Positions 13,022 through 55,602 of a stretch of 64,000 bases of DNA are shown here, piece after piece. The position numbers and the translations under genes are program-made. The first letter of the stretch is position 1, and each line of letters opens with the position of its first letter. The stretch comes from Paracoccaceae bacterium. Lineage in GTDB: Bacteria > Pseudomonadota > Alphaproteobacteria > Rhodobacterales > Rhodobacteraceae. The DNA is taken from positions 186,001 to 250,000 of the forward strand of contig SDAL01000005.1 in the NCBI GenBank assembly GCA_004153385.1, written 5' to 3'. The notes beneath the pieces are model-generated. The model was not told the DNA's origin and ran no database searches. It saw only the letters and a program-made list of their open reading frames with translations.

Positions 13022-13636
13022 TCAGAACACCCCCGCATCGCGTGCGACAATGGCCGCCTGTGTGCGGTTGTTGACATCCAGCTTGCGATAAAGCGTTTTC
13101 ATATGCAGCTTGACCGTGGGTTCGGTCAGATCAAGATCGCGCGCGATCTCCTTGTTCGATTTGCCCTCTGTCAGACCTTTGAGCACCTCGGCCTCGCGTT
13201 TGGTAAGGCTTTGTGCAATCGGATGGAGCTCGGACGTATCGGGGGCGGTCATGAAATCGATAGGCGCATATTGCTCGCCCATGGCCATGAATTTCACCGC
13301 ATTCACCAGCGACTTTGCAGGCAGCGTCTTGGGGATAAATCCTGCCGCGCCAAGCGCCAGCGCCTGTTCGGCAATCTCGCGGGTGGCCTGACCCGAGATC
13401 AGCGCAACCCGCTGTCCGCCCTCCATCGCCAACGCCTCTCGCAGCGTGTCCAGACCCGTCATGCCCGGCATCTTGTAATCAAGCAGCACCAGATTATAGG
13501 CCGCATCCTCGCGGATCCGCACGCAGGCTTCCTGAAAGGTCGACGCACTGCTGACCTCGATGCCATCCTCGGTTTCAAGAAACGCAATCAGCGTATCGCG
13601 CAAAAGATCGTGGTCATCGGCAATCAGGATACGCAT
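13022..13636 (-). CDS. LuxR/NarL-family response regulator
   Basis: A 204-residue response regulator. Receiver residues 1-120 have acidic residues DDHD at 7-10, phospho-acceptor Asp in LVLLDYKMPG near residue 53 and Lys in FIPKTLP near 105. Residues 140-200 form the LuxR helix-turn-helix (LTKREAEVLKGLTEGKSNKE). SD AAAAGGAG precedes the ATG. It sits among exopolysaccharide genes, with a hybrid kinase encoded 2.3 kb away. It is the natural candidate to bind the palindromes at 12997, 15345 and 19793, which is inference. Confidence 0.93.
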   Translation of the reverse strand: MRILIADDHDLLRDTLIAFLETEDGIEVSSASTFQEACVRIREDAAYNLVLLDYKMPGMTGLDTLREALAMEGGQRVALISGQATREIAEQALALGAAGFIPKTLPAKSLVNAVKFMAMGEQYAPIDFMTAPDTSELHPIAQSLTKREAEVLKGLTEGKSNKEIARDLDLTEPTVKLHMKTLYRKLDVNNRTQAAIVARDAGVF

Positions 13637-13754
13637 GGCGGGGCTCCTTTTAAATTCGCACGATCACCGTAACGCGATCTGTCATAGGACTTAAGGCATC
13701 ATTTGCCTAACACCAAGAATAAACACGCCTCCCTTACCCGTTGGAGTGGGATCT

Positions 13755-13772
13755 ATGCCCCGAACGGATAGA
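13755..13772. promoter_or_regulatory. EPS palindrome half-site b
   Basis: The right half CCGAACGGATAG is identical to the perfect box at 15345, but the left half is degraded. It lies 148 bp upstream of the WecG/sugar transferase start at 13920 and 119 bp upstream of the response regulator start, next to a second GC palindrome (CCGATCGG core, 13781-13788). Confidence 0.4.
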
Positions 13773-13919
13773 CGCCCCCCCCGATCGGGGGCGCGGCATG
13801 GCCTTTGGCATGTGCGGCCCTGCCCTATGGACCACGCGCCTATGCGGGCGCGGAATTGCGCCACACGGCAGTCTGCACGCAATCTTAAGACATATTCCGG
13901 TCTGCCAAGGAGAACCCTG

Positions 13920-15332
13920 ATGAATGCCCTGACCGATTTCACCGCGCCCCGCCGGATCGAGGCCACGCCCGGCGATCACGACCGGACCGCCCGCCTCTGC
14001 GCAGACCTGCCCCGCCGTATGGTGCTGGATCTGCCGCTGGTCGATGCCAGCACCGCCCAGACCGTGGCAGCCCTGCTCGACGGGGGCGCGCGCAGTGTCT
14101 ATTTCCTCAATGCCCATTGCGCCAATCTGGCCCACACCCGGCCCGCCTACAGCGCAGCCCTCGGGCGGGCGGATGTGATCTTGCCCGACGGGATCGGGGT
14201 GGATCTGGCCGCCCGCATGGCAGGCATACGGCTAGGTGCCAATCTCAACGGCACCGATTTCACCCCCGCCCTGCTGCAAGAGGCCGCCAAACGGGGCCTG
14301 TCGGTGTTTTTGATCGGCGCCACACCGGGCACGGCACGCCGCGCGGGCGAGGCCCTTTGCCGTGACATCGCGGGGCTGCAGATTGCGGGCACATTGAACG
14401 GCTATGACGATGTCGCCGACCCAGAGGCCGCAATTGCCACGATCAACGCCTCCGGCGCGGGTATCGTGCTGGTTGCGATGGGCGTGCCACAACAGGAGCT
14501 GTGGATCGACCGGCATCTGGAACACCTGTCGCCGCGTCTGGTGCTGGGGGTGGGTGCGCTGTTTGATTTTCTGGCCGGAAATGTGGTGCGCGCGCCTGCG
14601 CCCGTTCGGCGGATGCGGCTTGAATGGGGCTGGCGTCTGGCGCAGGAACCGCGCCGTCTTGCACGCCGCTATGTGCTGGGCAATGGCCGTTTCCTGTGGC
14701 GCGCGGCCACACATGTCTTGCAGCGCACATCCCGCGACGCGCTTTTGAAACGCGGGTTCGATCTGGTTTTCAGCGCAGCATTGATTACGCTGCTCTCGCC
14801 CTTGTTGCTGGGGGTGTGCGCGCTGATCCGGCTCGACAGTCGCGGGCCGGTCGTGTTTCGCCAGACCCGTGTGGGCAAGGGCGGCGCCCCGTTCACGATC
14901 TATAAATTCCGCACCATGTTCACCGATGCCGAGGCCCGTCTGGCGACGATGCAGGCCTGCTCGGACCGTAAGGGGATCTGTTTCAAATCGCGCCACGATC
15001 CACGGGTGACCCGCATCGGGCGGATGTTGCGGCGCTATTCGATCGACGAGCTGCCGCAGATCTTCAATGTGTTGTTTGGCCAGATGTCGCTGGTGGGCCC
15101 GCGTCCGGCCCTGCCGCGCGAGGTGGCAGCCTATCCCGCCGGTGCGCATGAACGCCTTGAGGCACGCCCGGGCATCACCGGCCTGTGGCAGGTGTCGGGC
15201 CGCGCCGATATCGGGTTTGACAAAATGGTCGATATGGATGTGGCCTATGTCCGCTCGCGCAGCTTTGTGCTGGATCTGATGCTGCTGGCGCTGACCGCGC
15301 GGGCCGTCACATCGGGGCGCGGCGCGTATTGA
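13920..15332 (+). CDS. Fused WecG/TagA-type glycosyltransferase and initiating sugar-phosphate transferase
   Basis: A 470-residue two-domain enzyme. Residues 35-210 match WecG/TagA/CpsF (GT26), with LNAHCANLA, LPDGIGVDLA and GVGALFDFLAG. Residues 275-465 match the bacterial sugar transferase family: a membrane segment (FDLVFSAALITLLSPLLLG), YKFRTM, RYSIDELPQIFNVL holding the catalytic Asp-Glu pair, MSLVGPRP and PGITGLWQVSGR. The C-terminal part would load the first sugar phosphate on undecaprenyl phosphate and the N-terminal part add the next sugar. ATG at 13920 has SD AAGGAGA; upstream codons in frame are not needed. Confidence 0.9.
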   Translation: MNALTDFTAPRRIEATPGDHDRTARLCADLPRRMVLDLPLVDASTAQTVAALLDGGARSVYFLNAHCANLAHTRPAYSAALGRADVILPDGIGVDLAARMAGIRLGANLNGTDFTPALLQEAAKRGLSVFLIGATPGTARRAGEALCRDIAGLQIAGTLNGYDDVADPEAAIATINASGAGIVLVAMGVPQQELWIDRHLEHLSPRLVLGVGALFDFLAGNVVRAPAPVRRMRLEWGWRLAQEPRRLARRYVLGNGRFLWRAATHVLQRTSRDALLKRGFDLVFSAALITLLSPLLLGVCALIRLDSRGPVVFRQTRVGKGGAPFTIYKFRTMFTDAEARLATMQACSDRKGICFKSRHDPRVTRIGRMLRRYSIDELPQIFNVLFGQMSLVGPRPALPREVAAYPAGAHERLEARPGITGLWQVSGRADIGFDKMVDMDVAYVRSRSFVLDLMLLALTARAVTSGRGAY

Positions 15333-15443: not shown

Positions 15444-15959
15444 ATGCGCGCCATTCAAATGATCCCCGTTATGGCGCTTGCCATGTCTGTTATTGTGGCG
15501 GCCCTGCCTGCCAGCGCCAAGACCTTGCCCCAACCGCACGGCCCGGTGCTGCTGACCCTCAGCGGCGAGATCGAACATACCAATGGCGATGGCACCGCCG
15601 CGCTCGATCTGGAGATGCTGCGCGAGATCGGCCAGACCGATATCGAAACCGAAACCATCTGGACCGATGGCATGCACCGCTTCAGCGGCGTCAGCCTCAA
15701 GGCGCTTTTGGACTATGTCGGCGCGCAAGGCACGATGATCGAGACCAGCGCGATCAACGATTATATGGTCGAGATCCCTGTCTCTGATGCCGTGACGGAC
15801 GGGCCGATCATCGCCTACGAGCTGGATGGCAAGACCATGTCGCGCCGCGAGAAAGGCCCGCTATGGGTCATCTATCCCTTCTCATCATCGAGTGACTATC
15901 GCACCGAAGTGATCTACTCTCGTAGCATATGGCAGATGGACAGAATGAAGGTGAAATGA
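15444..15959 (+). CDS. Exported SUOX-fold (oxidoreductase molybdopterin-binding-like) protein, cysteine-free
   Basis: A 171-residue protein with a signal peptide (residues 1-25, cleavage after ASA). The mature part resembles the small periplasmic SUOX-like proteins: LLTLSGEIEHTN at the start, FSGVSLKALLDYVGAQG near residue 80, INDYMVEIP near 108, and RREKGPLWVIYPF near 131. No cysteine occurs anywhere, so the usual Mo ligand is missing. Its start has SD AAAGGAG, and its stop overlaps the kinase start (ATGA). A paralogue (55603-56136) precedes a GGDEF-EAL protein. A sensory or ligand-binding role for the neighbouring kinase is inferred. Confidence 0.8.
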   Translation: MRAIQMIPVMALAMSVIVAALPASAKTLPQPHGPVLLTLSGEIEHTNGDGTAALDLEMLREIGQTDIETETIWTDGMHRFSGVSLKALLDYVGAQGTMIETSAINDYMVEIPVSDAVTDGPIIAYELDGKTMSRREKGPLWVIYPFSSSSDYRTEVIYSRSIWQMDRMKVK

Positions 15960-18499
15960 CACAGCCCGCAAACGCGCCCCGCCGCGTGTGGCCGAACAGG
16001 GCGCGTGCGGGGGGCGGCCTTTTGCTTGCTCTTGCGGCGATGTGCCTTGCGGCCATCGTCTTTCTCACATTCGAAATCACCGCCGAGCTGCGGTTTCTGG
16101 GCTCGGCCGATTCCGATAACGTGCATTGGACCTTGTCCCAGGCCGAGGTCGAATTCCTCGAACTGGGCAATGCCATCGACCATGCGCGCGTCAGCGGCGG
16201 CAGCCGGCTCGATCAGGTCGTCGAGGAGTTCGATATTTTCTACAGCCGGATGGTCACGCTGTCATCGGGCCAGCTTTATGCGCAATTGCGCCTTGATCCG
16301 GGCTTTGCCGGTCCTGTCAACACGGTGCGCGCACAGCTTGATGCGATGATCCCGCTGATCGACGGGCCGCCGGAGGCGCTGTGGGCAGGGCTGGACGAGA
16401 TGGCCACCCAGCTGGAGGCGCTCAGGCTACAGGTGCGTAATTTCTCGACCGCAGGGCTGCAGCATTTCGCCCGCAGCTCCGATGAAAGCCGGACCTCGAT
16501 TGCGGTCATTTTGCAACGTCTGGCGCTTGTGACGGCGGCGCTTTTGCTGGCACTGGCCGTTTTGCTTTTGCATTCGCGGCGCATCATGGCGCGTACATCG
16601 CGGCGCGAGAAAGAGCTGGGCTTTGCCTATGCGCGGCTCAATACGATCCTTGAAACCTCGCTTGATGCGGTGATCGTGGCGGGAATGGACGGGCGCATTC
16701 TTGATTTCAACTCGGCCGCCGAGCGGATTTTCAAGACCGAAAGCGCGGCCGTGCGCGGCAAAAGCATCGGTGAGGTGATGGTGCCAGAGCATCTGCGCGC
16801 CGCCCATGAGGCGGGGATGGACCGCATGCGCACCGGCGGCGAGATGCATGTGGTGGGTCAGGGCCGCGTCAAACTGGAGGCGATGCGCACCACAGGCGAG
16901 GTGTTCCCGATCGAACTGGCCATCGAGCGGGCCACCACCGAAGAGGGCGATCTGGCCGTGGCCTTCGTGCGCGATATTTCCCGACGGGTCGCATCGGAGA
17001 ACGAACTGGTTCAGGCGCGTGACCGCGCGCTTGCGGGGGAAAAGGCCAAGGCCGAATTTCTGGCGATGATGACCCATGAAATCCGCACGCCACTGAACGG
17101 GGTGTTGGGCAATCTGTCGCTTTTGAATGACACACCCCTTGATACCGCCCAAAGCCGCTATGTCCGCAATATGGGGATTTCGGGCAAGTTGCTGATGCAG
17201 CATGTCGATGCGGTGCTGGATGTGGCGCGGTTCGAATCCGGTGTGGAGACCGGACGCGAGGAGACGGTGCATATCGGGCAGCTCATTCAGGATATCGTGG
17301 ATTCGCAATCGATCACCGCGCAGGCCAATGGCAACCGCCTGACATGGGCATGGTCCGACAGGCCGGTTGAGTGGGTGCGTGTGGACGCCTCGCGTTTGCA
17401 ACAGGTGCTTGTTAACCTTGTGGGCAACGCGATCAAATTCACCCGCGACGGGCAGATCATGATCGAGGCCGAGGCGCATGAAGGCGCTGACGGCCTGCGC
17501 CTTGATCTGCGCGTCATCGATACCGGCATCGGGATTGCGCCAGACGATCAGGCCCGCATCTTCGACGATTTCCAGACCGTCAGCGAGGCGCAATCGAAAT
17601 CGATCAACGGCACCGGTCTGGGCCTGAGCATCGCACGCCGTTTCATCACGGCGATGCAGGGCGAGATCGGACTGGAAAGCACGCCCGGCGAAGGCAGCGT
17701 GTTCTGGCTGCAAATCCCTGTCACCGCGCAAGAGGCCCCGGGCATGCCCGAGGCGCAGGCCGCTTTTGTCCCCACAACGGACCTGCCGCCGCTGGATGTG
17801 CTTTTGGTCGAGGATGACGATATCAACCTCGAGATCGCGCAGGAAATGCTTGGCCGGATGCACCATGTCGTGACCCCCGCGCGCAACGGGCAGCAGGCGG
17901 TCGAAATCGCCACCGCCAGACGCTTCGATCTGATCTTGATGGATATCCGCATGCCCGTGCTGGACGGGCTGGAGGCCACGCGCCGGATCCGCGCAAGTGG
18001 CGGCAAAAGTGCCGATGTGCCCGTCATCGCGTTTTCGGCCAATGTCCTGCCAGAGGCCAAGGAACGCTTTGCCGCAGCCGGCATGTCGGGCTTTTTGGGA
18101 AAACCGCTCAAAGGGGCGGAGCTGTCGGAACTGATCGCCACGTTTTTCGCGCGCGAAACATCGGCCCAGAGCCCGCCGCCGGACGCAGCCCCCGATGCAA
18201 GCGCCCACGCCCCTCCTGCATCACCCGGCCGGTTTGACACTCTGGCCGCGCGCCATAGCGCCGAACTGGTGGTGTTTTTCGATGATATATCGCGCGCCTC
18301 CATGGACCGCGCAGAAATTGCGGAGCGGGCCCATAAACTGGCCGGCAGTGCCGCAGCCTTTGGCCAGCATGATTTGCGCGCCGCGCTGGTGCATGTGGAG
18401 ACGACGGCCGAGGCCGCCGCCGACACGGACGGTTTGCAAGCCGCCCTTACCGCCGCGCGATTGGCGTGGCAAAACGCCCCCGCGCCGCATATCGGATAG
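15956..18499 (+). CDS. Hybrid sensor histidine kinase (sensor-PAS-HisKA-HATPase-REC-HPt)
   Basis: An 847-residue inner-membrane kinase. Order: membrane helix 20-40; periplasmic helical sensor 43-180; membrane helix 185-206; PAS 228-345; HisKA with phospho-His in MMTHEIRTPLNG near 374; ATPase with NLVGNAIKFT, DTGIGIAPDD and GTGLGLSIA; receiver near 618-735 with Asp in LILMDIRMP; and a C-terminal HPt with AHKLAGSAAAFG. The ATG at 15956 overlaps the SUOX-fold gene stop. The sensor resembles that of the GGDEF-EAL protein at 53637 (SRMVTLSSGQL against SRLVTFTGGSL). The HPt output would pass phosphate to a separate regulator, perhaps that at 13022. Confidence 0.92.
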   Translation: MTQPANAPRRVWPNRARAGGGLLLALAAMCLAAIVFLTFEITAELRFLGSADSDNVHWTLSQAEVEFLELGNAIDHARVSGGSRLDQVVEEFDIFYSRMVTLSSGQLYAQLRLDPGFAGPVNTVRAQLDAMIPLIDGPPEALWAGLDEMATQLEALRLQVRNFSTAGLQHFARSSDESRTSIAVILQRLALVTAALLLALAVLLLHSRRIMARTSRREKELGFAYARLNTILETSLDAVIVAGMDGRILDFNSAAERIFKTESAAVRGKSIGEVMVPEHLRAAHEAGMDRMRTGGEMHVVGQGRVKLEAMRTTGEVFPIELAIERATTEEGDLAVAFVRDISRRVASENELVQARDRALAGEKAKAEFLAMMTHEIRTPLNGVLGNLSLLNDTPLDTAQSRYVRNMGISGKLLMQHVDAVLDVARFESGVETGREETVHIGQLIQDIVDSQSITAQANGNRLTWAWSDRPVEWVRVDASRLQQVLVNLVGNAIKFTRDGQIMIEAEAHEGADGLRLDLRVIDTGIGIAPDDQARIFDDFQTVSEAQSKSINGTGLGLSIARRFITAMQGEIGLESTPGEGSVFWLQIPVTAQEAPGMPEAQAAFVPTTDLPPLDVLLVEDDDINLEIAQEMLGRMHHVVTPARNGQQAVEIATARRFDLILMDIRMPVLDGLEATRRIRASGGKSADVPVIAFSANVLPEAKERFAAAGMSGFLGKPLKGAELSELIATFFARETSAQSPPPDAAPDASAHAPPASPGRFDTLAARHSAELVVFFDDISRASMDRAEIAERAHKLAGSAAAFGQHDLRAALVHVETTAEAAADTDGLQAALTAARLAWQNAPAPHIG

Positions 18500-18508
18500 C
18501 CGCGCGCC

Positions 18509-19714
18509 TCAGCGCGAGATCAGCCCCGCCGTCGCGACCGTGCCGATGGCGCGGGCCGCCTCTGTGACATTGGTCACACCGCTGTCATAGCAGGCGATTG
18601 CATCCCCGGGCATCAGGTAGGGATCGTAATCGTCGCGATCGGCGCGGTGCAGCATATCCTCGATTTTGCGGGCGATGACCGTAGAGACACCGGTCACCGG
18701 ATCACGGGTGACCAGCACCGCCGAGCGGTGGGCATTGCTCGAACGCGCGCCCCCCACACAGTTGGTGTCGACCACCGCTTGTAAAAACCGCGTGCCATAA
18801 GGCATCTCGCGCACCTCGCGCCCGATGGCAGAGGGGGCATTGCCCGTGGCAGGCTGCGTCAGGTTGGACAGGAACAACGACACACCGGGCGGGCTGACCG
18901 GGCTGGGGCGCATCAGGTCATCCTGAAAACACTGGCGTGAGGGCACAATGACCTCGTCGCCGCTCAACAACATCACATCAACCGAATTGCGTCCCGCAAA
19001 CACCCCCCGCATATCAAGCGTATAGCGCTGGCCCGCACGGTGCAGCTCGATGGAGGACAGATCGGCATCGGGGCGCACCCCGCCTGCCGCGCGCAGGGCA
19101 GTCGACAGGTTGCGGTTTTCGGTCGATGAGCCCAAGGCCCGCTGGCGCGCACTGTCAAACACCTCGCCGCGCTGGCCGATCTCTATGGCGCGGGGCTCGA
19201 ACACGGCCCCCGACACCCCTACCGACACGGAGGCAAAATCGGCCACCCGCACCGAAATACGCGGCGCATCCTCGTAGAACGCATCCGCCACAAGCGCGGC
19301 GCCAAGATCCGCCTCGATCTGGGCTGTGCTGCGGCCTTGTGCGCGCACCGGCGGCAAGAACGGCAGTTTGAGCATCCCGTCATTGGAGATGACATAATCG
19401 CCGTTGAACGTCTCGTCGTCGCCCACGCGCACGTCCACCAGATCATTGCGCGACAGCCGCTCGCCTATCAGGGCCTGCGCCCCGCCTGCCTTTGCGCCAT
19501 GCCCCGCCGTCTCGCGACAGCGTTCGGCATTGAGCGCGGGAGCAACCAGCCTGACGGTGTCTGGGTCGAATTTCACAGGGTCGCGGTATTGCGCCTGATA
19601 TCCGCCATCACGGCGGATCGTGCCGATGTTTTCGGGCGACGGTGTCGGACTGCACCCGAAGATAAGGGCAAGACCCAGGCACGAACCAAGCAAACGGGTG
19701 CGAATGATCGACAT
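18509..19714 (-). CDS. Polysaccharide export outer-membrane lipoprotein (Wza-type)
   Basis: A 401-residue lipoprotein with a signal and lipobox ending ALIFGC at residue 21. The poly-export region is near 85-150 (LSRNDLVDVRVGDDETFNGD and DGMLKLPFLPPVRAQG), and SLBB-like regions follow (VSGAVFEPRAIEIG; LLSGDEVIVPSRQ). It would form the outer-membrane exit for the exopolysaccharide made by this cluster. Its stop lies 10 bp from the convergent kinase stop. A box (19793-19810) lies 78 bp upstream of the start. Confidence 0.88.
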   Translation of the reverse strand: MSIIRTRLLGSCLGLALIFGCSPTPSPENIGTIRRDGGYQAQYRDPVKFDPDTVRLVAPALNAERCRETAGHGAKAGGAQALIGERLSRNDLVDVRVGDDETFNGDYVISNDGMLKLPFLPPVRAQGRSTAQIEADLGAALVADAFYEDAPRISVRVADFASVSVGVSGAVFEPRAIEIGQRGEVFDSARQRALGSSTENRNLSTALRAAGGVRPDADLSSIELHRAGQRYTLDMRGVFAGRNSVDVMLLSGDEVIVPSRQCFQDDLMRPSPVSPPGVSLFLSNLTQPATGNAPSAIGREVREMPYGTRFLQAVVDTNCVGGARSSNAHRSAVLVTRDPVTGVSTVIARKIEDMLHRADRDDYDPYLMPGDAIACYDSGVTNVTEAARAIGTVATAGLISR

Positions 19715-19930: not shown

Positions 19931-21166
19931 ATGATATCGACCCAAGCCAAAACCCTGCTCGGCCATCTTATGGCATATGGCGCCTCGGAGCTGGCCTCGA
20001 AACTGTCGCGGCTGGGGGTTGTGATTGCGGTTGCGCGGACGCTCGAGGCAAGCGAGATCGGGATTGCCGCAGCCGCCCTTGCGACGGGCGATTTGCTGAA
20101 ATCGCTCACCGAGAACGGGATCGGCCAGCGCCTGATCGCGGCGCGGGCGCAGGATCTGCCGGCGATGTGCAACCGCGCCCACCAGCTGTTCTGGATCTGG
20201 GGGCTGGGCCTGTTCACGGTGCAGGCGGCGCTTGCAGCGCTTGTGTGGGTTCTGACCGGAAACACGATGCTGGCGCTGCTGATCTTGGTGCTTTCGGGCG
20301 AATATCTTTTCATGCCGGGGGGGCTTGTGCAAACCGCGCTGGCCTTGCGGGCGGGACGGCTGAAGCAAACCGCGGCCATCGCGGGCAGTCAGGCTGTTCT
20401 GGCCAATCTGGCCTCGATCGCGCTGGCGTTTTACTGGCCCACGGCGCTTGCGCTGGTGTTGCCGCGCCTACTGACGGCCCCGTTCTGGCTGATTGCGATG
20501 CGCCGCCTTCATCCGTGGACACGGGTGGCGGATGCGGGCATGGCACCGGTGCGCCCGTTTGTGCAGTTCGGCTGGGCGGTTCTGGGCACCGAGATCGTCA
20601 AGACCGCGCGGCTGCATGGTGACAAGCTGGTGATCGGCGCGCTTTTGGGGCCTGAAATCCTCGGTCTGTACTTCATGGCCTTCAATGCGGGCCTGAGCCT
20701 TGCGACCTCGTTTTCCACCGCCTTTGCCGCTGTGTTGTTTCCCCATCTGTGCGCCAGTGCAAATCGTGCCGCCGCCCTGCGCCAAGCCCTTATGGTGTCG
20801 CTCGGGATTGTGGCACCTGCGGTGATCGCGCAATCGCTCGCAGCCCCGATCTATGTGCCGTTTCTGCTGGGCGAGCGCTGGAGCGCGCTGGCCGAACCGG
20901 TGTCGATCCTGTGCCTTGTGGCGATCCCCACGATGCTGTGGACGGCCGCCGCAGGCTGGATGCGCGCCGATAACCGCGCCGCCACCGAACTGGGGGCGAC
21001 CACGATCCTGACGATGGCCCTGACGGCCAGCACCGTGCTGACCGCGCCCTTCGGGCTGACCGCAATCGCATGGGGCTATCTTGTGGTGGCAAGCGTCACG
21101 ATGCTTGCGCTGTCATGGCCCGCCCTGCGCACCGCCCTGTCTTTGCCCATGCCAATGAAAGCCTGA
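19931..21166 (+). CDS. Polysaccharide flippase (Wzx/MOP-type)
   Basis: A 411-residue polytopic membrane protein of the oligosaccharide flippase superfamily with about twelve predicted helices. It starts with AYGASELASKLSRLGVVIAVAR and carries KTARLHGDKLVIGALLGPEILG near residue 225. It would flip undecaprenyl-linked repeat units to the periplasm for the Wzy-type polymerase. SD AGGAAA precedes the ATG. It heads a run of four plus-strand genes with the three glycosyltransferases, 4 bp from the next. Confidence 0.87.
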   Translation: MISTQAKTLLGHLMAYGASELASKLSRLGVVIAVARTLEASEIGIAAAALATGDLLKSLTENGIGQRLIAARAQDLPAMCNRAHQLFWIWGLGLFTVQAALAALVWVLTGNTMLALLILVLSGEYLFMPGGLVQTALALRAGRLKQTAAIAGSQAVLANLASIALAFYWPTALALVLPRLLTAPFWLIAMRRLHPWTRVADAGMAPVRPFVQFGWAVLGTEIVKTARLHGDKLVIGALLGPEILGLYFMAFNAGLSLATSFSTAFAAVLFPHLCASANRAAALRQALMVSLGIVAPAVIAQSLAAPIYVPFLLGERWSALAEPVSILCLVAIPTMLWTAAAGWMRADNRAATELGATTILTMALTASTVLTAPFGLTAIAWGYLVVASVTMLALSWPALRTALSLPMPMKA

Positions 21167-42899: not shown

Positions 42900-44333
42900 T
42901 TAATTAGGACGCGCGGCTTTCATACCCTGCCGGGTATCATTTCCTGCAAGCTGGTTATGCATTCTGGCAAACATCTCGTAGGCCTCATTGCGTTTTCCGG
43001 CATTAAGATAGGCATAGGCGCGCAAAACCCCAAGGCCACGGTTCAGGCTCTGGATCTTATCGGCTGCATCCAGATAGCCTATGGCGCGGGCATAATCCTT
43101 GGCGTCATAGGCGGCGATCCCGCGCTGGACCAGAATCTCGTGTTCCACATCCACGCGCTGCTTGGCGGTGAACTTGGTGGCCACGCTGATTTTGGCCGCC
43201 TCGTTGGACATTTTCATATTAAGATAGGACATTGCCATACCGTAGCGCGCATCACGCGCCACATCGGCCGGCACACGCCCCTTGGCCACAGCCGAAAAAG
43301 ACGACAGCGCCTCCATCGGCCGGTCAAGATTAAGGCTGCACCAGCCGCGCTCGTTGAGCAGGTCAAGCGATTTCGGATCGGGTGTCAGCGCGATGCACCG
43401 CGCCCAGTTACCCGATGCCGTGGCCGCCCGCAGGCTGGCAAGCCTGCGATCGCCGGTGGCCGGCAACCGGTCCCAAGGTGTGGCAGGTGCGCTGATCGCG
43501 CCCCCCACCGAACGCGTGGACGATGATGTGGCGGAGCTGCGCGGGGCTGTGGTGCGCGCAGGCGCCGACGCCGTGCGCGAGGCGTTGGCCGCAGGCTTGG
43601 CGCTGCTTTCACCGTGCCCTGCACGCAGCCTGTCATGTAGCGCCTCTAGATCTTCCGATCTGGCCGGAAACCGCTCCGCTGCGGTTTTAAACATGCCGTC
43701 GAGCTGGTCTGACGTGCTCACGTCATCGGCCTTTTGCAACGTGGCCTCGACATCGGAATAGGCCGGACAACTGGCCACAATCGCCTGATAGGCACCGCGC
43801 GCCTGTGCAGACTGGCCGGCGCGCTTTTGCGCCTCTGCCAAGCGCCAGACATTGTCGATCCGGTTGCAGCGCGTGAGCGCCGGATTGGACCGCGCGATCT
43901 GGTCGGCACGTGCCGCATTGGATCCCACGACCGCGTCGAACTCCTCCTGCGCTTTCGCAGTTTGCAAAAGCTGGACCATATCGGCAGGTGGCGTCCAGTC
44001 GGGGAACTTCTGGCGCGCACTGTCCAGTGTGGTTTGTGCCGCGCCGGTATCACCGCGCGCGATCTGCTCGTAGATCCTGTCGATCTCGGGGCCGGGATTG
44101 GCGCTGGTGGTCAGCGTGTTGAGGTCTTCGGGCGGCTGCCAGTTGGGAAACGCGGTACGCAACCGCCGGATTTCGGCATTGATCGCGGCCTGATTGTTTT
44201 GCTGGATATAGAACCGCAAGGCCGCCAGATCAGCGGTCGATTGCGCAACAACAGGGGCGGTGCTTGCGAAGACCGCCAAGGCGACAACGCCGATATGGCG
44301 CAAAGGAAACCGTAAGCTCAAATGGGTTGGCAC
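42900..44333 (-). CDS. TPR protein of the cellulose operon (BcsK-like)
   Basis: A 477-residue exported protein: signal peptide in residues 1-30 (VVALAVFASTAPVVAQ), repeated helical TPR-like units, a Ser/Thr/Ala/Pro-rich linker near 235-285, and more TPR at 310-460. It has no C-terminal beta-barrel, so it is not full BcsC. This matches the TPR protein (BcsK) of alphaproteobacterial type III operons. The GTG at 44333 is chosen for its SD (AAGGA, 8 bp away); a TTG at 44321 is possible. It overlaps bcsZ by 16 bp. Confidence 0.78.
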   Translation of the reverse strand: MPTHLSLRFPLRHIGVVALAVFASTAPVVAQSTADLAALRFYIQQNNQAAINAEIRRLRTAFPNWQPPEDLNTLTTSANPGPEIDRIYEQIARGDTGAAQTTLDSARQKFPDWTPPADMVQLLQTAKAQEEFDAVVGSNAARADQIARSNPALTRCNRIDNVWRLAEAQKRAGQSAQARGAYQAIVASCPAYSDVEATLQKADDVSTSDQLDGMFKTAAERFPARSEDLEALHDRLRAGHGESSAKPAANASRTASAPARTTAPRSSATSSSTRSVGGAISAPATPWDRLPATGDRRLASLRAATASGNWARCIALTPDPKSLDLLNERGWCSLNLDRPMEALSSFSAVAKGRVPADVARDARYGMAMSYLNMKMSNEAAKISVATKFTAKQRVDVEHEILVQRGIAAYDAKDYARAIGYLDAADKIQSLNRGLGVLRAYAYLNAGKRNEAYEMFARMHNQLAGNDTRQGMKAARPN

Positions 44334-45391
44334 TGGGGAAATCCTTGTATTTGCGCGATAAGAACAAACAGGTGCAACGTGGCCGGATAATAGGGCTGAT
44401 CGGTTGTAAACAACGGGATCGGCAGTTTGGCCCCGCCTGCCCCGGTGCAAGACGCAAGCCCCGCCAGCGCCGCATATCCGATATCGGGGCTGCGTTCGAG
44501 AACCTCGCCGGTTTTGCCGTCAAACACGGTCGGTGTTCCCGCGTCCAGTCCCGCCGCCTCGTAGGCGGTGCGGTAACGGCGCACCATAGGATGGGAGGCC
44601 TGACCACTCAAACACAGATAGACCGGCACCCGCATGGCCTCGTAGCCGGTGTTGGACGAAAACCCCTCAGGCGCGGCGGTCCAGCCATCAGGCGTGGCCA
44701 TCATCCAGTCAGGGGCCAGACCGGCATCGGCCATTTCCCCCAACCGCGCCAGCCCGTCGTCAACGGCCCGCTGCAGGCTCGGCTCGTTGAAGGCCACGGC
44801 CAGATCGCTCATCAGTTTCGGCATCCAGTAGGAGGGATTGTAGATGATCCCCTCGGGGCGCACGAACCCCTCAACGCCGGGCGCAAGCAACCGTCTGCCA
44901 CTGTCGTTGGGAACCGGCGGCAGGCAAAGCCGCGCAACCGCCTTGACGATCACCCCCGCACGCCCACGGCATTGCGGCAGATCAAACAGATCGGCGCCCA
45001 TCAGCAAGGCCCATGCATAAAACACATCGCCATCAGAGGCATTGTTCATATCAGGCACATTGGGGGTGGCATCAGGCAGCCATCGCCACGCCAGAAGCCC
45101 GTCTGTGCGCAAGGCCAGATTGGCCTCCGTCCAGCTGTAGATCAGCCGGAACGCTTCCACATCACGAAACAGAACAGCCAGATACAGCCCGTAGCCCTGA
45201 CTTTCGGAATGGCTGGCCCCGCCGGAGGCCACATCGACAATCCGCCCGTCGGGCTGCAGATAGGCCGCCTTCCACGCGTTCCACGCAGGCACCAGCGACT
45301 GCAGCGACGCACCCGCCTCTTGCCCGAATGCGCCCATCGCAGGCATCAACCCAAGCGCGCTTGCGCCCACAATCACCTCACGTCGGTTCAT
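44318..45391 (-). CDS. bcsZ: Cellulase of the cellulose operon (GH8)
   Basis: A 357-residue glycosyl hydrolase family 8 enzyme with a signal (MNRREVIVGASALGLMP, twin-Arg-like but lacking the full motif). The catalytic acid lies in SHSESQGYGLYLAVLFRD near residue 62, and conserved segments WRWLP, NASDGDVFYAWAL and PSYWMPKL follow. It trims or edits nascent beta-1,4-glucan in the periplasm. It starts by ATGA overlap with bcsB. Confidence 0.92.
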   Translation of the reverse strand: MNRREVIVGASALGLMPAMGAFGQEAGASLQSLVPAWNAWKAAYLQPDGRIVDVASGGASHSESQGYGLYLAVLFRDVEAFRLIYSWTEANLALRTDGLLAWRWLPDATPNVPDMNNASDGDVFYAWALLMGADLFDLPQCRGRAGVIVKAVARLCLPPVPNDSGRRLLAPGVEGFVRPEGIIYNPSYWMPKLMSDLAVAFNEPSLQRAVDDGLARLGEMADAGLAPDWMMATPDGWTAAPEGFSSNTGYEAMRVPVYLCLSGQASHPMVRRYRTAYEAAGLDAGTPTVFDGKTGEVLERSPDIGYAALAGLASCTGAGGAKLPIPLFTTDQPYYPATLHLFVLIAQIQGFPQCQPI

Positions 45392-47625
45392 TGATTGCGG
45401 TCCTTTCGTGTTAAGATCACGTATATCAGCGCAGGGATTGTGGACAGCACCGACAATGCCAGCAAGATCAGCGCATAAAACCCGGGCGCCCATGACGCAA
45501 AGTTACCTACAACCTGAAAGATCTGGTTAAAGGCTATCGGCCCCACAACATGCGGTCTGGGCGTGGGGGGCCATGTCTGCCATGTCCCGTCTTGGGTGCG
45601 TAGCGCGACGCGCGTGCCTTGCGCCCTGTCGCTTGCACGAAACTGTGTGAAGCTGGCGGCCAGAACCTCTGGTGCAAGGGTCGTATCGGACACAAGCGTC
45701 CACGGCATATCGCTTTCGGTGGGGGCCATCAGCACCGCCACCGCAGAACGGTTCACGATCCATTGTGACAGCGTCGGCCCCTCGGGCGCGACCAGTTCCC
45801 CCAGCCAGTCCTTCAAGGAGGCGGCCAGCCCGTCAGAGCGTTGGGGATCTTGCGCCGGTGCATCGTCTTCAGCCTCGTTGAGGCGGAAAAACTGCGGCCT
45901 GTCGGCCCCTTGCGGCGCGCTGGTGCCCCGGGTCTGGAAGATATGCGCGATCTCTTCGCGATCCAGCGGCAGGCGGGTATCGAGTGTGTTGAAATCCTGC
46001 GGCAGCTGCGCCAGTTGCAGACGTGCCGTGCCTTGGGTGGATTTTTGCAGCGACAGCTGGCCGATGAAGGTATGTACAAAATCCGGCTCGGCTGCGGGGG
46101 CCATGACATCTTCCCCGCCGATGGACTGCAGTTCGTCATCTTGGGGACCAAAGGCCATGGGCGGTGTGGGCGGCACATTCAACGTGCTGGAATTCAGCAC
46201 GACCAGCATATCGCTATCGCGCTCGGGGCATTCGAATGTTGCAGGATCCCCCGGCACGATCATCTCGAAGCTGATCGTGTTGTGCCCGCCGTGCAGCAGG
46301 TTGATCGGAAAGCGGACCCGCAGGGATGGCTGCACCTTGCCACCGTCCACATCCAGCGGCAGCAGGATAATCGTCTCGCCATTGGCCTTGACCAGCAAGA
46401 TAGAGCCGTCCGTCAAATCCTTGCCATAGCCATAATCGAGCGTCAGCATGGCGCGCTGCGAGGACAGGTTCATCCAGTCTTTCGGCAGGCTGAAGGGCAC
46501 CTCGGCCTGCGCGTAATGGGTATTGCGCACAATCAGCGGCGCGCCAAGCTCCTTGAAGGTCGTCTCGCGCCCGGGCGTCAGCGCCTGCGGATCGCGTTCG
46601 GCGTCTTGGGCGGGGAACGTCCGGGCCAGAAGGTCGGCCAGACCTGTGCCTTCGGTCACCTGCATGACCAGCGCGCCTTGGGGGCTGCGCAGGAAGCTGA
46701 TATCGGCCGCCCCGCCCGTGCCTTGGCGCAATGCCACACCCACACGGCGTCCGGCGCGGTCTACCGGCTCGTATGGCGAGCGCACGAGGATGGCGGCGCT
46801 GTCTGACACATTTGCACCAATAGCCCCCATCACAGCGGCAAGCGTATCAGTCGACACACCCTCGGGCATCCGCACATCGATCTTTTCGCCGCGCTGGACG
46901 ATATTGGTCACGCCGGCGCGAAAACTGCCCGCCGTCAGCTTCACGGCCCCTGCGGGCACGGTCACACCGCTGTCGGGCAGGTTGATCTCGGTCCAGACAT
47001 CAAAACTCGCCTCGGGGCCACAAAAGATGCGGTGGTGCTGGTGCAGCGACAGATCGACCGTATTGATGCCAGCTTTCAGCGCGGTCCCGGGCACAGTGAT
47101 CGTGCCGAACCCCTCGACATTGGACAGCGGCCATTGCCCCGCCTCTTGTTCGTTCACACTGACCGTGACCCATGAATGGTCGGGCAGATTGCTCACACTG
47201 CTGCGCAAAACCAGATCGAACGAGACAGGTGGTGTTTCGTCTGCAGGCAACGACAGCGCCAGCGCGACAGAGGCGTCCTCCCCCGTCAGGCGCAAGATGC
47301 CCGGCTCGGGGAAGCTTGCCCCCATCATGATCCGGCCCTGTGGCACGCTGGTATCCAGCACCCGCAGACCCAGATCCCAAGTCCGTTCCTGAACGGTGGT
47401 GCCGGCGCCGCTGCGCGACCAGCCACCGATCTGTGGCAATGGCCCGTCGGAGGGCGCAGGCGCGCTCGGGGCTTGCGCCGGTGTCTGGGGCGGATCGATC
47501 AGGGCTTCGGGCAGATCGGGCAGATGGATTTCAGCATCCGCGCCGCCTTGGGGTGTGTTTTGGGCATAAAGCGGTGCGGTCCCCGCAACGGCTGCCACCA
47601 ACAAAATAGACCACAGATGCTTCAT
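45388..47625 (-). CDS. bcsB: Cellulose synthase regulatory/periplasmic subunit
   Basis: A 745-residue protein with a signal peptide (cleavage after PLYA), two carbohydrate-binding-like and flavodoxin-like regions, and a single C-terminal membrane anchor (FYALILLALSVLSTIPALIY). Length and layout match BcsB, which guides the glucan through the periplasm and is required by BcsA. ATG at 47625 overlaps the bcsA stop (ATGA). Family segments include HQHHRIFCGPEASFDVWTEI near residue 180. Confidence 0.93.
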   Translation of the reverse strand: MKHLWSILLVAAVAGTAPLYAQNTPQGGADAEIHLPDLPEALIDPPQTPAQAPSAPAPSDGPLPQIGGWSRSGAGTTVQERTWDLGLRVLDTSVPQGRIMMGASFPEPGILRLTGEDASVALALSLPADETPPVSFDLVLRSSVSNLPDHSWVTVSVNEQEAGQWPLSNVEGFGTITVPGTALKAGINTVDLSLHQHHRIFCGPEASFDVWTEINLPDSGVTVPAGAVKLTAGSFRAGVTNIVQRGEKIDVRMPEGVSTDTLAAVMGAIGANVSDSAAILVRSPYEPVDRAGRRVGVALRQGTGGAADISFLRSPQGALVMQVTEGTGLADLLARTFPAQDAERDPQALTPGRETTFKELGAPLIVRNTHYAQAEVPFSLPKDWMNLSSQRAMLTLDYGYGKDLTDGSILLVKANGETIILLPLDVDGGKVQPSLRVRFPINLLHGGHNTISFEMIVPGDPATFECPERDSDMLVVLNSSTLNVPPTPPMAFGPQDDELQSIGGEDVMAPAAEPDFVHTFIGQLSLQKSTQGTARLQLAQLPQDFNTLDTRLPLDREEIAHIFQTRGTSAPQGADRPQFFRLNEAEDDAPAQDPQRSDGLAASLKDWLGELVAPEGPTLSQWIVNRSAVAVLMAPTESDMPWTLVSDTTLAPEVLAASFTQFRASDRAQGTRVALRTQDGTWQTWPPTPRPHVVGPIAFNQIFQVVGNFASWAPGFYALILLALSVLSTIPALIYVILTRKDRNQ

Positions 47626-49922
47626 GACGGGGCCTGTGTACGACGGGAGGTCTCGTTGATCGCGGCATCTTCGACAAAATCGCTGCCGAAGGCCACAAGA
47701 TGCGCGGGGCGTTGCTGCGCCTCGCTCAGGGCGGGGTCTTTCACACGACCGGGTTCGGCCAGATAATCGCGCAGCGTCAAAGGCAGGGATTTGCCCGCCA
47801 GCCACAGGATATATCCCAGACCATGCAGCAGACCCACGCCCTTACGGGTGCCGAGGCGGCGGCGCTCCCATGTCTCGCTATTGCCGAAGATCAACAGCGC
47901 GACCGCCTCGCGTGCCTTGATAGACTGGTTGGTCGGGAAGATCAGGCGCAGCGCGACCCCGTTTCCGCTATCCTCGACAGAGCGGATGATCCCGCGCACG
48001 GGGCTTTCAAGATGCGGCTCGTCGGGGAATTGCGGCTTGAACACGATTTCCTCGCCCTTGGTATAGGGGGGCGCGTCCACACTGCGCGGCAGCACGATCT
48101 GCGCGCCCGTGGTCGAGGCATCCATGATCGTGCCCACAACGGGCATCGCATTCTCGCGCATCACATCGGCGGGGCTGCGCATCTCCACACGCGGCGAGGC
48201 GCGGCGTTGTTGTTTTTCGCAAGTGGCGCGCAGGGACAGCGACACAAGGATAAAGTTGAACAGCGCCCATGCACCCACAACCGCCAGAACGTGACGGTCC
48301 CCCGGGAAGGCAACCCAGCGCACGCCCACCAGAACCAGTCCCAATGTCATCAGTGCGAACAGCGCCAGCAGCGGACGATAGACCGGCGAGATATAGTTCG
48401 AGGCCAGTGTCTCGCTTTTGTCGGTCACGTTGAAACGCGCGTGGCGCGGGCGCAAGACGGTCATGAAGATCGCCTTGAGCAGATAGGGCGCTTGGGCGAC
48501 CTCGTAGATCTCGGACACCAACGGCCAACGGAACCGCGAGAAGATCGCGTTTTGCGTCAGGAAACTGACAAACAGATAGGTGGCGCTGAAGGCCAGCGCA
48601 TCCTGCGCCGTACCCACAAAAATCTCGACGCCGAAAATCAGATAGCACAGCGGCGCCAGAAGATAGGCCATCCGGATGACCGGAAAGAACCAAAAGCTCA
48701 TGGAGTTGAGGTAGCAAAGCCGCAGCTTCAGCCCCAGACCGGGGCGCAAGATCGGGTTTTTCAGCAAAAGCATTTGCATCATGCCCGTGGCCCAACGACC
48801 ACGCTGCTGGATGAAGCTGGCAAAGGTTTCAGGCTGTAGGCCCGCGATCATCGCACGGTTGAGATACAGGCTGCGCCAGCCTCTGGCGTGGATTTCCAGC
48901 GCGGTCTCGGCATCCTCGGTGATCGTCTCACCGGCAAACCCGCCCACATCATCCAGCGCGCGGCGGCGCAGAACGGCGGCCGATCCGCAAAAGAACGCCC
49001 CCCCCCAGCGATCAAGGCCGCGGTGGATCAGGCCATAGAACATCTCGTTTTCCGGCGGGGCCGAGGCGCTGAAACCAAGGTTACGCTCGATCGGGTCCTT
49101 GTTGATGAAGTAATGCGGCGTCTGGACCAGAAACAGCTTGGGGTCCTTGCGGAAATAGCCCACCGTTCTGGCCAGAAAATCACGCGACGGCACGTGGTCT
49201 GCGTCAAACACCACCACCAGTTCGCCATCAAGTTTGGAAAGTGCAGCCGACATATTGCCGGCTTTGGCGTGTTCATTGCGGGCGCGGGTGGAATAGATCA
49301 CCCCCAGTTCATCGCAAAGTTCCTGCAATTCGGCACGGCGCGCGCGGGCGGCAGCGGCGGCATCGGGATCGTCTTGGTTGCATTTCTGATCGGTGCCGCC
49401 GTCATCGCATAAAACCACACGGCGTTTGTCGGTGGGATAGATCATGTTGCACGCCGCAGCCAGCGTGATGATCAACATATCCTTGGGCTCGTTATAAGAC
49501 GGCACCAGAATATCGACGGTCGGCAGATCCTCGCGGTTCTCGATCCGTGGCGGGATCTCGCGCCGCGTGGGGTCGGCCACCAGAAACGCATTGAGAAAGA
49601 AGATCAGGATCGAATAGGTCTCGACCACGAACAGCGCGGTCGCCAGCACGAACGACGGGGTCAGTCCGGGCTCGGGCAGCGTGCTTGTCAAACGCCACAG
49701 CCAGTAGCGGATCACGATCACACTGCCGACCGCAAGCAGCAAGAACCGTGGCCAGCCACGCCGCGCAAAGGGTTTGAGCACCACAATCGTGACGACCACC
49801 ACACAAGACAGCGTAATCTGCGCCATCAGCGAGGTCGGTGCGAGGGTCAGCGCCAGAATGGGGATGATAAAGACCACCCATAACAGCAGCATAGCAGTGG
49901 CGACAAAAACGTTCATGCGCAT
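47622..49922 (-). CDS. bcsA: Cellulose synthase catalytic subunit (UDP-forming)
   Basis: A 766-residue polytopic GT2 enzyme. Motifs in order: DDGGTDQK near residue 172, VVFDADHVP near 235, FFCGSAAVLRR near 308, TEDAETALE near 335 and QQRGRWATGM near 375. A C-terminal PilZ domain (about 575-680) has the c-di-GMP motif as RRASPRVEMR plus DASTTGAQI, so activation by c-di-GMP is expected. It makes beta-1,4-glucan and translocates it. Confidence 0.96.
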   Translation of the reverse strand: MRMNVFVATAMLLLWVVFIIPILALTLAPTSLMAQITLSCVVVVTIVVLKPFARRGWPRFLLLAVGSVIVIRYWLWRLTSTLPEPGLTPSFVLATALFVVETYSILIFFLNAFLVADPTRREIPPRIENREDLPTVDILVPSYNEPKDMLIITLAAACNMIYPTDKRRVVLCDDGGTDQKCNQDDPDAAAAARARRAELQELCDELGVIYSTRARNEHAKAGNMSAALSKLDGELVVVFDADHVPSRDFLARTVGYFRKDPKLFLVQTPHYFINKDPIERNLGFSASAPPENEMFYGLIHRGLDRWGGAFFCGSAAVLRRRALDDVGGFAGETITEDAETALEIHARGWRSLYLNRAMIAGLQPETFASFIQQRGRWATGMMQMLLLKNPILRPGLGLKLRLCYLNSMSFWFFPVIRMAYLLAPLCYLIFGVEIFVGTAQDALAFSATYLFVSFLTQNAIFSRFRWPLVSEIYEVAQAPYLLKAIFMTVLRPRHARFNVTDKSETLASNYISPVYRPLLALFALMTLGLVLVGVRWVAFPGDRHVLAVVGAWALFNFILVSLSLRATCEKQQRRASPRVEMRSPADVMRENAMPVVGTIMDASTTGAQIVLPRSVDAPPYTKGEEIVFKPQFPDEPHLESPVRGIIRSVEDSGNGVALRLIFPTNQSIKAREAVALLIFGNSETWERRRLGTRKGVGLLHGLGYILWLAGKSLPLTLRDYLAEPGRVKDPALSEAQQRPAHLVAFGSDFVEDAAINETSRRTQAPS

Positions 49923-49968
49923 GTCAATGCATCTCCATGGGGGGTTGGGCAGGGTTGCATGGTCATCC

Positions 49969-50613
49969 TCAGTCGGGGATCGGGGCGGAGAGAGGCGACA
50001 ACAACTGGATGCCGGAGGCGGTGGCAGATGGCGTAAGCCCGAAGGACGTATCGCGGATCGGCATCAGCGCCTCACTGGCCGGACCGTTGATACAGTTGCG
50101 TAAAACCGCATCGATCATGTCTTGCTTGAGCGGGATCAGCCGCTGTGTGCCCCCCACTTTGCGGATGGCAAGAACGCAGTTGATGTCGCCGAAATTCGCG
50201 ACCGCATAGGAAAATGGACCAAGACTATCGGTTTCGGTCGTCATGTCTTCGGCCTCCAGCCCGGAGAACGGGGTGGGAAACCCGCCCAGACGCGTGCGCA
50301 GCGCGCCAAAGCGCAACCGCGCCCCGCCATAATCGGATGCCAGCATGATCAACTGGTTATCGCCAGAAACAGAGGTTCCATTGGGCAGGGAAATAACCTG
50401 CTCTATATCGCTGCCCACGACACGCTGCATCACGGTCAGCTGGCCCGGCACAGAGGCCCATGCCAACGATTGCGGTACGATCTCGTAGGGGGTGATGCGG
50501 TTCTTCTCGGGCGGCAGATAGCGCTCGATGAACGCGGTCGGGCTACATCCCGCCACCAGAAAGCCCAAAAAAATGCTGCCAATGATCCGCAGGGTGGCAA
50601 TATGGCTCGACAT
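49969..50613 (-). CDS. BcsN-like cellulose operon lipoprotein
   Basis: A 214-residue lipoprotein with lipobox LVAGC at residue 23. The mature part has a segment typical of BcsN of alphaproteobacterial cellulose operons (AFIERYLPPEKNRITPYEIV). It is the first gene of the operon, 46 bp upstream of bcsA, with SD AAAGGGA. Function of BcsN is not well established. Assignment rests on position and general likeness. Confidence 0.72.
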   Translation of the reverse strand: MSSHIATLRIIGSIFLGFLVAGCSPTAFIERYLPPEKNRITPYEIVPQSLAWASVPGQLTVMQRVVGSDIEQVISLPNGTSVSGDNQLIMLASDYGGARLRFGALRTRLGGFPTPFSGLEAEDMTTETDSLGPFSYAVANFGDINCVLAIRKVGGTQRLIPLKQDMIDAVLRNCINGPASEALMPIRDTSFGLTPSATASGIQLLSPLSAPIPD

Positions 50614-52245: not shown

Positions 52246-52684
52246 AGGCTGTGCCTCCGGTCCATCACAGGCAGGCTCACGGCAACAGGGTTTTCTGACA
52301 CCGCGGTGGGACGTGACCATGCTGGAATAACTGATACATATGAAAATTCTCCTGTCATACGGGAGCTGGAAAAAGGGATGCCAAACAGGCGCTTGAGCAC
52401 TCCTGAAGGCAGGCGTGCCCCCCTCCACCCGGTCCCATCGCATCCTCCACCTCGGAGATCCGAGAGATCTGGCCGGACCACGGCGTGAGGTAAGATCTAT
52501 ATGGCGTCCAATCCCCCCCTTTATTGTTATATCACACAAACTGAATGCGATCGTAAAAAGACATGTTTTAAGGGAAAAGCTGCCGTTTCATCGGAAAACC
52601 CGACATGTTGTGCGCGAAACACCTTTGTCGGGGGATGAATATCCCAATGCGCGCACCGTCGACATAAGGCAAAGGCATAAAGCA

Positions 52685-55598: not shown

Positions 55599-55602
55599 AC
55601 AG

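Follow-up and report, generated by a model that had tools for sequence, protein, structure and literature searches.

Why would one bacterium encode two related small exported proteins, each directly ahead of a membrane signalling protein, with a phosphorelay at the end of one pair and cyclic di-GMP (c-di-GMP) at the end of the other? The question is raised by two loci in a 64,000-nucleotide stretch of DNA, referred to here as the window, from a Paracoccaceae bacterium (GenBank assembly GCA_004153385.1, contig SDAL01000005.1, positions 186,001 to 250,000), which an earlier inspection made without database searches, the sequence-only reading, had picked out as sharing one design. We consider it highly probable that both are PruR systems, in which an exported pterin-binding protein would act on its membrane partner through a periplasmic sensor domain. 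The four genes are as follows (window positions; aa, amino acids; TM, transmembrane segment).

15444..15959, plus strand: PruR-like exported protein 1 (PruR 1), 171 aa; phmmer against the PDB gives 7kos/7kou at E 8.2e-39 and 7rkb at E 9e-35; Tyr of NDY and Trp of SxW kept, no Cys.
15956..18499, plus strand: DTB-type hybrid histidine kinase, TM-periplasmic sensor-TM-PAS-HisKA-HATPase-REC-Hpt (Pfam); WX7E motif present.
55603..56145, minus strand: PruR-like exported protein 2 (PruR 2), 180 aa from a GTG at 56145, with an ATG at 56136; phmmer against the PDB gives 7kos at E 7e-48 and 7rkb at E 1.7e-44; Tyr and Trp kept.
53637..55598, minus strand: DcpA-type protein, 653 aa, TM-periplasmic sensor-TM-GGDEF-EAL (Pfam and motif alignment).

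Both pairs were found where the sequence-only reading had placed them, a small exported protein before a membrane signalling protein in each. The kinase probably starts at the ATG at 15956, in an ATGA overlap with PruR 1 as that reading had it, within a reading frame open from 15929, and the gap of 4 bp that it gave between the second small gene and the GGDEF-EAL gene is likewise present. The outputs differ as claimed, Pfam giving HisKA-HATPase-REC in the one and GGDEF-EAL in the other; the Hpt domain of the kinase falls below the Pfam cut-off (E 0.012). The genome holds three PruR genes, two with kinases and one with a c-di-GMP protein. The third (contig C1, L012:2535-3026, 163 aa; L numbers denote our extracted loci) is followed by a PAS-HisKA-HATPase-REC kinase, and this third pair (L012:429-5218, C1 about 1,746,900-1,751,700) lies directly behind a gene read by eye as a PAS-containing chemoreceptor. 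All three small proteins, of 171, 180, and 163 aa, begin with hydrophobic N-termini by eye, which is the evidence for export.

By sequence, both window small proteins are relatives of Agrobacterium PruR. Among all solved structures, the best phmmer matches for both were 7kos/7kou (E 8.2e-39 and 7e-48, 146 residues), followed by 7rkb, 7kp2, and 7kom, and excerpts of the published account identify 7KOS as A. tumefaciens PruR, a periplasmic pterin-binding protein (PMC13259868). The two small proteins are 36% identical to each other in a three-way alignment of the genome's copies, and both have PruR structures as their best matches, which bears out the claim that they are paralogs. The SUOX-fold label that they had been given was right as to fold, but PruR was not recognized behind it, and the pterin ligand was hence missed.

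Sulfite oxidases and MsrP (YedY) share the SUOX fold and the Oxidored_molyb family, and the small proteins could in principle be short molybdenum cofactor (Moco) enzymes of that type, with the neighboring sensors responding to the reaction product. Pfam Oxidored_molyb matches are in keeping with this, as are phmmer matches of sulfite oxidases to both proteins, weak ones at E 0.05 to 0.27, but the solved pterin-binding proteins match far better. The window PruRs are also shorter, are paired with sensors, and lack the Cys that ligates molybdenum: none of the three genome copies has a Cys in its mature part, those of PruR 2 being confined to the N-terminal hydrophobic stretch, and in 157 of 159 relatives, the aligned segment is free of Cys beyond residue 35. 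In PruR itself, according to the same excerpts, a Trp replaces the Mo-ligating Cys, and the pocket is likely unable to hold Moco (PMC13259868). The missing Cys and the far better PruR matches led us to drop the molybdenum enzyme explanation, which we regard as very improbable.

If the proteins are PruRs, the next question is whether the ligand is a pterin. The pterin-site residues of PruR are given in these excerpts as Trp160 and Tyr104, with Phe for Tyr in some members (PMC13259868), and by spacing we equate them with the Trp of SxW and the Tyr of NDY. Both are kept in all three genome copies, and in the alignment of 159 relatives, which was filtered by profile score and excludes the most divergent, Trp is found in 159 and Tyr in 157, the other two having Phe. 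This near invariance of the pocket speaks against the proposal that the fold is retained here while the ligand is something other than a pterin or the pocket serves only as a scaffold. That proposal can draw on the published statement that the in vivo pterin is unsettled (PMC13259868) and on the small number of pterin-pathway genes beside PruR, with two FolE2 and three PTPS matches among 220 stretches scanned. Against it, the genes that were found directly adjoin PruR, namely folE2 in Paracoccus (L204 4816-5868) and genes of the 6-carboxytetrahydropterin synthase type divergent from PruR in L205 (5351-5707), L234 (4335-4892), and L235 (6632-7045). The genome also encodes a 258-aa short-chain reductase (contig C2:151748-152482) with TGGAKRLG and YTIAK, which fit the PruA motifs TGX3RXG and YX3K (PMC13259868); from these motifs we name it a PruA/FolM-like candidate. 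A ligand other than a pterin thus appears unlikely to us, and we retain a pterin as the probable ligand.

The second part of the question is whether the two partners share an input. Profiles were built from 111 kinase sensors (100 used after filtering) and 8 DcpA sensors and compared with HHalign; periplasmic residues only were used, because membrane helices could otherwise produce a match. The match extends over 127 columns (Prob 98.1, E 1.1e-13). With the columns of the DcpA profile shuffled, 20 controls stayed between Prob 0.08 and 4.55, which rules out chance similarity. The sequence-only reading had called the periplasmic parts homologous from short peptides, and the profile comparison (Prob 98.1, against no more than 4.6 for shuffles) confirms it; the quoted peptides are present inside the match, and one corresponds to the WX7E region. 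A periplasmic domain of about 190 aa with a WX7E motif is common to the partners in PruR-DcpA and PruR-DTB systems, the motif being conserved in the vast majority of them but not in all (PMC13259868). The window kinase has it as WTLSQAEVE. Trp is present in 107 of 111 kinase sensors and Glu in 100, the other 11 having Asp, and six of the eight DcpA sensors have the Trp. The kinase sensor is predicted to be all-helical (pLDDT 92.7, 50 sequences).

The exchange of outputs is visible without profiles. In two loci (L234 and L235), the gene after PruR encodes a sensor kinase of 482-493 aa. Identity of its sensor to that of a Phyllobacterium DcpA, over 212 residues, is 37% in L234 (E 2e-45) and 34% in L235 (E 4e-37); to that of the window DcpA it is 30% (E 3e-16) and 33% (E 3e-17), respectively. 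The output is HisKA-HATPase by Pfam in L234 and a kinase by phmmer in L235. As judged at the plain BLAST level, one sensor type occurs with both outputs. The idea of one periplasmic input module serving two signalling outputs is supported by this exchange together with the profile match. It is correct but already published, as PruR-DcpA and PruR-DTB, the two configurations described among more than 5,500 unique PruR-linked sequences (PMC13259868).

The exchange does not appear to have been a recent event in this genome. In PruR trees of up to 176 sequences, arbitrarily rooted, PruR 1 belongs to a nine-member clade (0.97), eight members of which, the window included, lie in a polysaccharide cluster. 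PruR 2 belongs to a 12-member clade (0.97) of ten DcpA-linked and two kinase-linked proteins, in which it is joined by PruRs of Paracoccus and Hyphomicrobiales. A recent output swap within the genome is unsupported, since the two PruRs fall in separate clades, which indicates that the pairs diverged earlier. The DcpA system may have been acquired horizontally; in the family survey described next, a GGDEF-EAL output was found at only 1 of 100 places.

For that survey, PruR 1 was searched against 149 family genomes drawn evenly, nearly one per genus and including the window genome. Matches were found in 86 of them, at 113 places outside the window genome, and the 100 with E of 2.7e-14 or lower were analyzed, 13 weaker ones being left out. 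A histidine kinase lay behind PruR at 90 places, which answers the sequence-only reading's call to see whether such genes adjoin sensors in other genomes. The remainder were one GGDEF-EAL protein (L201), two sensors cut by a contig end, six places with no partner, and one with no PruR above the score threshold. The Hpt domain of the window kinase was matched in 16 of the 90 kinases, and a REC domain was seen in 65 of the 100 loci. Four of the six partnerless genes precede selO (L116, L133, L135, and L149), one precedes an opposite-strand gene (L114), and one lies at a contig end (L193). A class-wide search with PruR 2 matched 37 of 289 genomes; seven of these loci were read (L234-L240), with a kinase matched behind or close to PruR in six, only a sensor, weakly, in the seventh, and GGDEF-EAL in none.

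The published systems provide close models for both pairs. PruR-DTB kinases resemble TorS and BaeS, some with PAS and receiver domains, and a taxon may have up to four systems (PMC13259868). The Ruegeria pomeroyi DSS-3 system (WP_011045932.1) is the same two-gene unit, an exported PruR and then a kinase with a DcpA-type periplasmic domain, WX7E, PAS, HisKA, HATPase, and REC (PMC13259868), to which the window kinase adds the subthreshold Hpt and a location within a polysaccharide cluster, next to a LuxR-type regulator. The A. tumefaciens PruR-DcpA system (7KOS; WP_006315771.1) likewise has an exported PruR directly before a TM-sensor-TM-GGDEF-EAL protein, and PruR 2 is 54% identical to the solved A. 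tumefaciens chain. The window differs in a Phe for Trp in WX7E and in substitutions in the EAL domain; an FkbM gene lies behind its pair. In TorT-TorS and QseG-QseE, a separate exported protein also conveys a signal to a helical sensor, the accessory proteins being unrelated to PruR. That comparison is one of working principle only, although TorS is the top NCBIfam match of the window kinase (361.8 bits, under the cut-off of 676.5) and a QseG-QseE chain appears in a Foldseek list at a nonsignificant E value.

In the mechanism that we propose, exported PruR, once periplasmic, would bind a reduced pterin; the complex would dock on the partner's helical sensor domain and shift the partner's activity, following the published model in which a pterin-PruR complex binds the sensor (PMC13259868). 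At 15444-18499, the kinase would probably pass phosphate via REC and Hpt to a divergent regulator at 13022-13636, which would set expression of the surrounding polysaccharide cluster. At 53637-56145, the DcpA-type protein would set c-di-GMP, which would act on a nearby PilZ-bearing cellulose-type synthase. Gene structure, PruR homology, kept pterin-site residues, sensor homology, and conservation of the neighborhood are what we observe here; pterin binding, PruR-DcpA contact, and the effect on c-di-GMP and biofilm are known in Agrobacterium only (PMC13259868). What we infer is which regulator the kinase serves, which polysaccharide genes each system controls, and which way each response runs. 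The surrounding genes are listed below.

13022..13636, minus strand: LuxR/NarL-type response regulator (Pfam Response_reg and GerE).
13746..15332, plus strand: WecG-type glycosyltransferase fused to a bacterial sugar transferase, flanking the polysaccharide cluster (Pfam).
18509..19714, minus strand: Wza-like polysaccharide export protein (Pfam Poly_export and SLBB_2).
19931..21166, plus strand: Wzx-like flippase, then glycosyltransferases to 24183 (Pfam).
42900..50613, minus strand: cellulose-type run of BcsN-like (subthreshold), BcsA with PilZ, BcsB, GH8, and a TPR protein (Pfam).
51004..52539, minus strand: GAF-EAL protein between the cellulose-type genes and the DcpA system (Pfam).

A LuxR/NarL regulator like that at 13022-13636 is found divergently oriented, within 3.5 kb upstream, in 49 of the 90 PruR-kinase loci. 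Its occurrence follows the PruR score: where PruR reaches 100 bits and the upstream stretch is long enough, 47 of 62 loci have it, and where PruR scores below 100 bits, 2 of 24. From this conservation, the regulator is the likely phosphorelay target of the window kinase. The text of PMC13259868 does not contain the phrase "response regulator" and gives no target for the DTB branch, for which the divergent regulator is a candidate.

The kinase pair sits between the WecG/sugar transferase gene and the Wza-like, Wzx-like, and glycosyltransferase genes, and a similar order, with one extra gene between, occurs on a plasmid of Ruegeria sp. B32. The WecG-Wza-Wzx trio was found in 14 of 80 named loci (best hits; this set overlaps the survey), and placement in a polysaccharide cluster is a minority arrangement. 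The DcpA pair lies near the cellulose-type run with its PilZ-bearing synthase, and loss of pruR in A. tumefaciens leads, according to the excerpts mentioned above, to more adhesive polysaccharide and cellulose (PMC13259868). Control of the two polysaccharide clusters by the two systems would be consistent with these locations. Two more c-di-GMP proteins flank the cellulose-type genes, a GGDEF-EAL protein at 40522-42657 (minus strand) with LEGDTF as its GGDEF motif and the GAF-EAL protein at 51004-52539 (minus strand).

Several observations weigh against the reading of both loci as PruR systems with these targets. PruR 2 scores 21.9 bits with Pfam Oxidored_molyb, below the cut-off of 24 that the other small protein passes with 28.7 bits, and the PruA candidate reaches 93.6 bits against a cut-off of 249 for NF005066, which we take to be the FolM model. 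Identity between the two sensor profiles is only 17%, and only 69 of the 90 surveyed kinases have a sensor that matches one of the genome's three. The window DcpA has FAFSQTVVE at the WX7E position, with Glu kept and Trp replaced by Phe, as is also the case in Paroceanicella (L205). Among the chains that Foldseek listed for the sensor model, which included NarQ, chemoreceptors, and QseG-QseE, none had an E value under 0.06. As for the targets, 41 of the 90 kinase loci are without a divergent regulator, two having one on the same strand and 39 having none in reach; the WecG-Wza-Wzx trio lies within 8 kb in only 10 of 100 survey loci, whose PruRs are not one clade; and no cellulose-type neighborhood was seen among the DcpA relatives read.

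The output of the window DcpA is itself unusual. Its GGDEF motif is intact, but in the EAL domain, EAL has become EAF, the ExxE stretch reads LELDIAE (E to D), and DDFGTG has become DHFGTG (D to H), so that it does not have the intact GGDEF and EAL catalytic residues of a dual diguanylate cyclase-phosphodiesterase. In an alignment with 10 GGDEF-EAL proteins encoded after PruR genes (L101, L201, L204-L208, L216, L219, and L223), DDFG and the first E were kept in all 10, the neighboring positions being EGL in L205 and GKG in L204. The changed positions are, as we assume from work on RocR, metal ligands. If so, the window DcpA may be biased toward c-di-GMP synthesis, unlike A. tumefaciens DcpA, which mainly degrades c-di-GMP (PMC13259868). 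Normal phosphodiesterase activity might nevertheless persist: the EAL domain scores well overall (185.8 bits, Pfam), and N, the second E of ExxE, the first D, K, EGVE, and Q are all kept. With two presumed metal-site positions altered in addition to the change to EAF, where all 10 relatives have DD and E, we find this rather doubtful.

The last question is where the pterin signal might come from, and it concerns the third gene of the DcpA locus.

52905..53606, minus strand: FkbM-family methyltransferase, third gene, 30 bases behind the DcpA gene (Pfam Methyltransf_21).

The protein matches PF05050 at 38.7 bits against a cut-off of 22.7 and has no visible export signal; its model (pLDDT 86.8) matches only generic S-adenosylmethionine (SAM) methyltransferases in a fold search. 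In a plasmid collection, 31 records match it, and among the matches listed, 17 are at 52-59% identity and 13 at 36% or less. In 16 of the 17 close records, FkbM and a PruR-like gene lie in one run, with DcpA in nine and a kinase in seven, although the 17 are not independent, several being near-identical plasmids. Five of the nine PruR-DcpA-FkbM loci were read (Paracoccus liaowanqingii L204, Phyllobacterium zundukense L206, Pseudochrobactrum L216, Rhizobium rhododendri L219, and Phyllobacterium sp. A18/5-2 L223, in which dcpA is in two frames). The other four (three Pseudochrobactrum and Ochrobactrum quorumnocens) were typed by coordinates, PruR and FkbM being on the same strand about 2.1 kb apart. 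One further record (L220) has a decayed DcpA and FkbM remnants, and PruR was not found in it. Among plasmid PruRs, the eight most similar to that of A. tumefaciens (68-74% identity) all come from FkbM records.

The seven kinase-type records (five Mesorhizobium, Aquibium, and Chelativorans) have the order regulator-FkbM-small protein-kinase, FkbM sitting in a tight gene run between the response regulator and the divergent PruR and kinase. In five, a small "hypothetical protein" matches the 159-sequence PruR profile, which was searched against 20 proteins, at E 3e-21 to 7e-19, and in the other two an open frame matches it at 64 bits. The small protein overlaps the kinase start, and five keep the Trp, with Phe for Tyr (by eye); the one in L211, annotated as hypothetical, had no Pfam match. 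Neither the DcpA nor the DTB sensor profile was matched by kinase sensors of the Mesorhizobium type (Prob 7.1 and 0.6), so that only the small protein marks these loci as PruR-like. The plasmid-borne units (L211-L215, L221, and L222) lie near type IV secretion or repABC genes.

FkbM is thus found with PruR under either output, which indicates that it goes with the input rather than with the output. The association has narrow limits. FkbM accompanies 6 of 11 aligned PruR plus GGDEF-EAL loci, the window included, and is absent from L101, L201, L205, L207, and L208. It was found within 8 kb in none of the 100 survey loci, and the clade was present in 1 of 385 class-spread genomes, that of the window, two more genomes matching at 29-31% identity. 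Two smaller searches, of 43 genomes around G208 and of 3 around G181, did not find the clade, a result of little weight. Distant FkbM relatives had no PruR in the 11 loci read, namely L225-L233 (32-46% identity, from nine family genomes, up to 6 kb on each side, 3.8 kb in all for L228) and plasmid loci L217 and L218 (32-36%).

In A. tumefaciens, the pterin has been proposed to be 2'-O-methylmonapterin, absent without PruA; the methylase is not named, the identity of the pterin that PruR binds in vivo, side chain included, is called unclear, and the words "methyltransferase" and "FkbM" do not occur in the text (PMC13259868). None of the papers searched mentions FkbM together with pterin, and a search on monapterin and methyl found no such enzyme in the titles or abstract openings shown. 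FkbM is a SAM enzyme with no export signal to be seen, and its association is with PruR rather than with a particular output, which makes it a candidate for that step. We put forward tentatively, and as a suggestion that is on the whole doubtful, that it may be a dedicated pterin O-methyltransferase making the PruR signal (2'-O-methylmonapterin or kin), the systems then having three parts in which the maker stays with the binder whatever the output. Such a role would bear on the in vivo pterin question.

Somewhat more probable is a role unrelated to pterin, in which FkbM would methylate a polysaccharide sugar or some other molecule. FkbM proteins are often sugar or secondary-metabolite O-methyltransferases, and the predicted fold here fits generic SAM methyltransferases only. 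A cellulose-type gene run is near FkbM in the window, two of the seven kinase-type plasmids have, between 2.5 and 3.6 kb upstream of FkbM, a gene annotated as "succinoglycan biosynthesis protein exoi" (others carry a thermonuclease annotation there), one of the seven has a CapA gene about 3 kb downstream, and many PruR loci are without FkbM. The neighbor common to both FkbM gene orders, however, is PruR and not a polysaccharide operon, and we regard the sugar alternative as a serious possibility that falls short of an even chance.

Relative to the published systems, what is new here is the FkbM link, the divergent regulator, the polysaccharide neighborhoods, and the altered DcpA, to which we assign functions provisionally. 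The genome is one more with both published outputs and lends itself to the question of whether a single pterin pool drives both signalling currencies simultaneously.

Some PruR loci depart from both configurations. A PruR-like gene lies directly upstream of selO (protein AMPylase), with no sensor, in four survey loci (L116, L133, L135, and L149) and three of the named set (L032, L037, and L060). Three of the four survey genomes also have a PruR-kinase locus, and the fourth has a contig-cut PruR-sensor locus. We set aside SelO as a third output at these seven loci; a promoter-like TTGC...CCATAT is seen by eye between the genes in five of six junctions, no sensor is present, and PruR and selO may not form one operon. 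In L041 and L058, PruR and a divergent response regulator are present with no recognizable kinase behind, possibly reflecting loss of the output gene. In L161, L163, and L199, PruR is followed by another PAS-kinase-REC type of about 750-780 aa, the core of which barely matches the window kinases. In the plasmid collection, 625 records match PruR 2 at E 1e-5, among them 265 from Klebsiella, and 392 are typed as conjugative.

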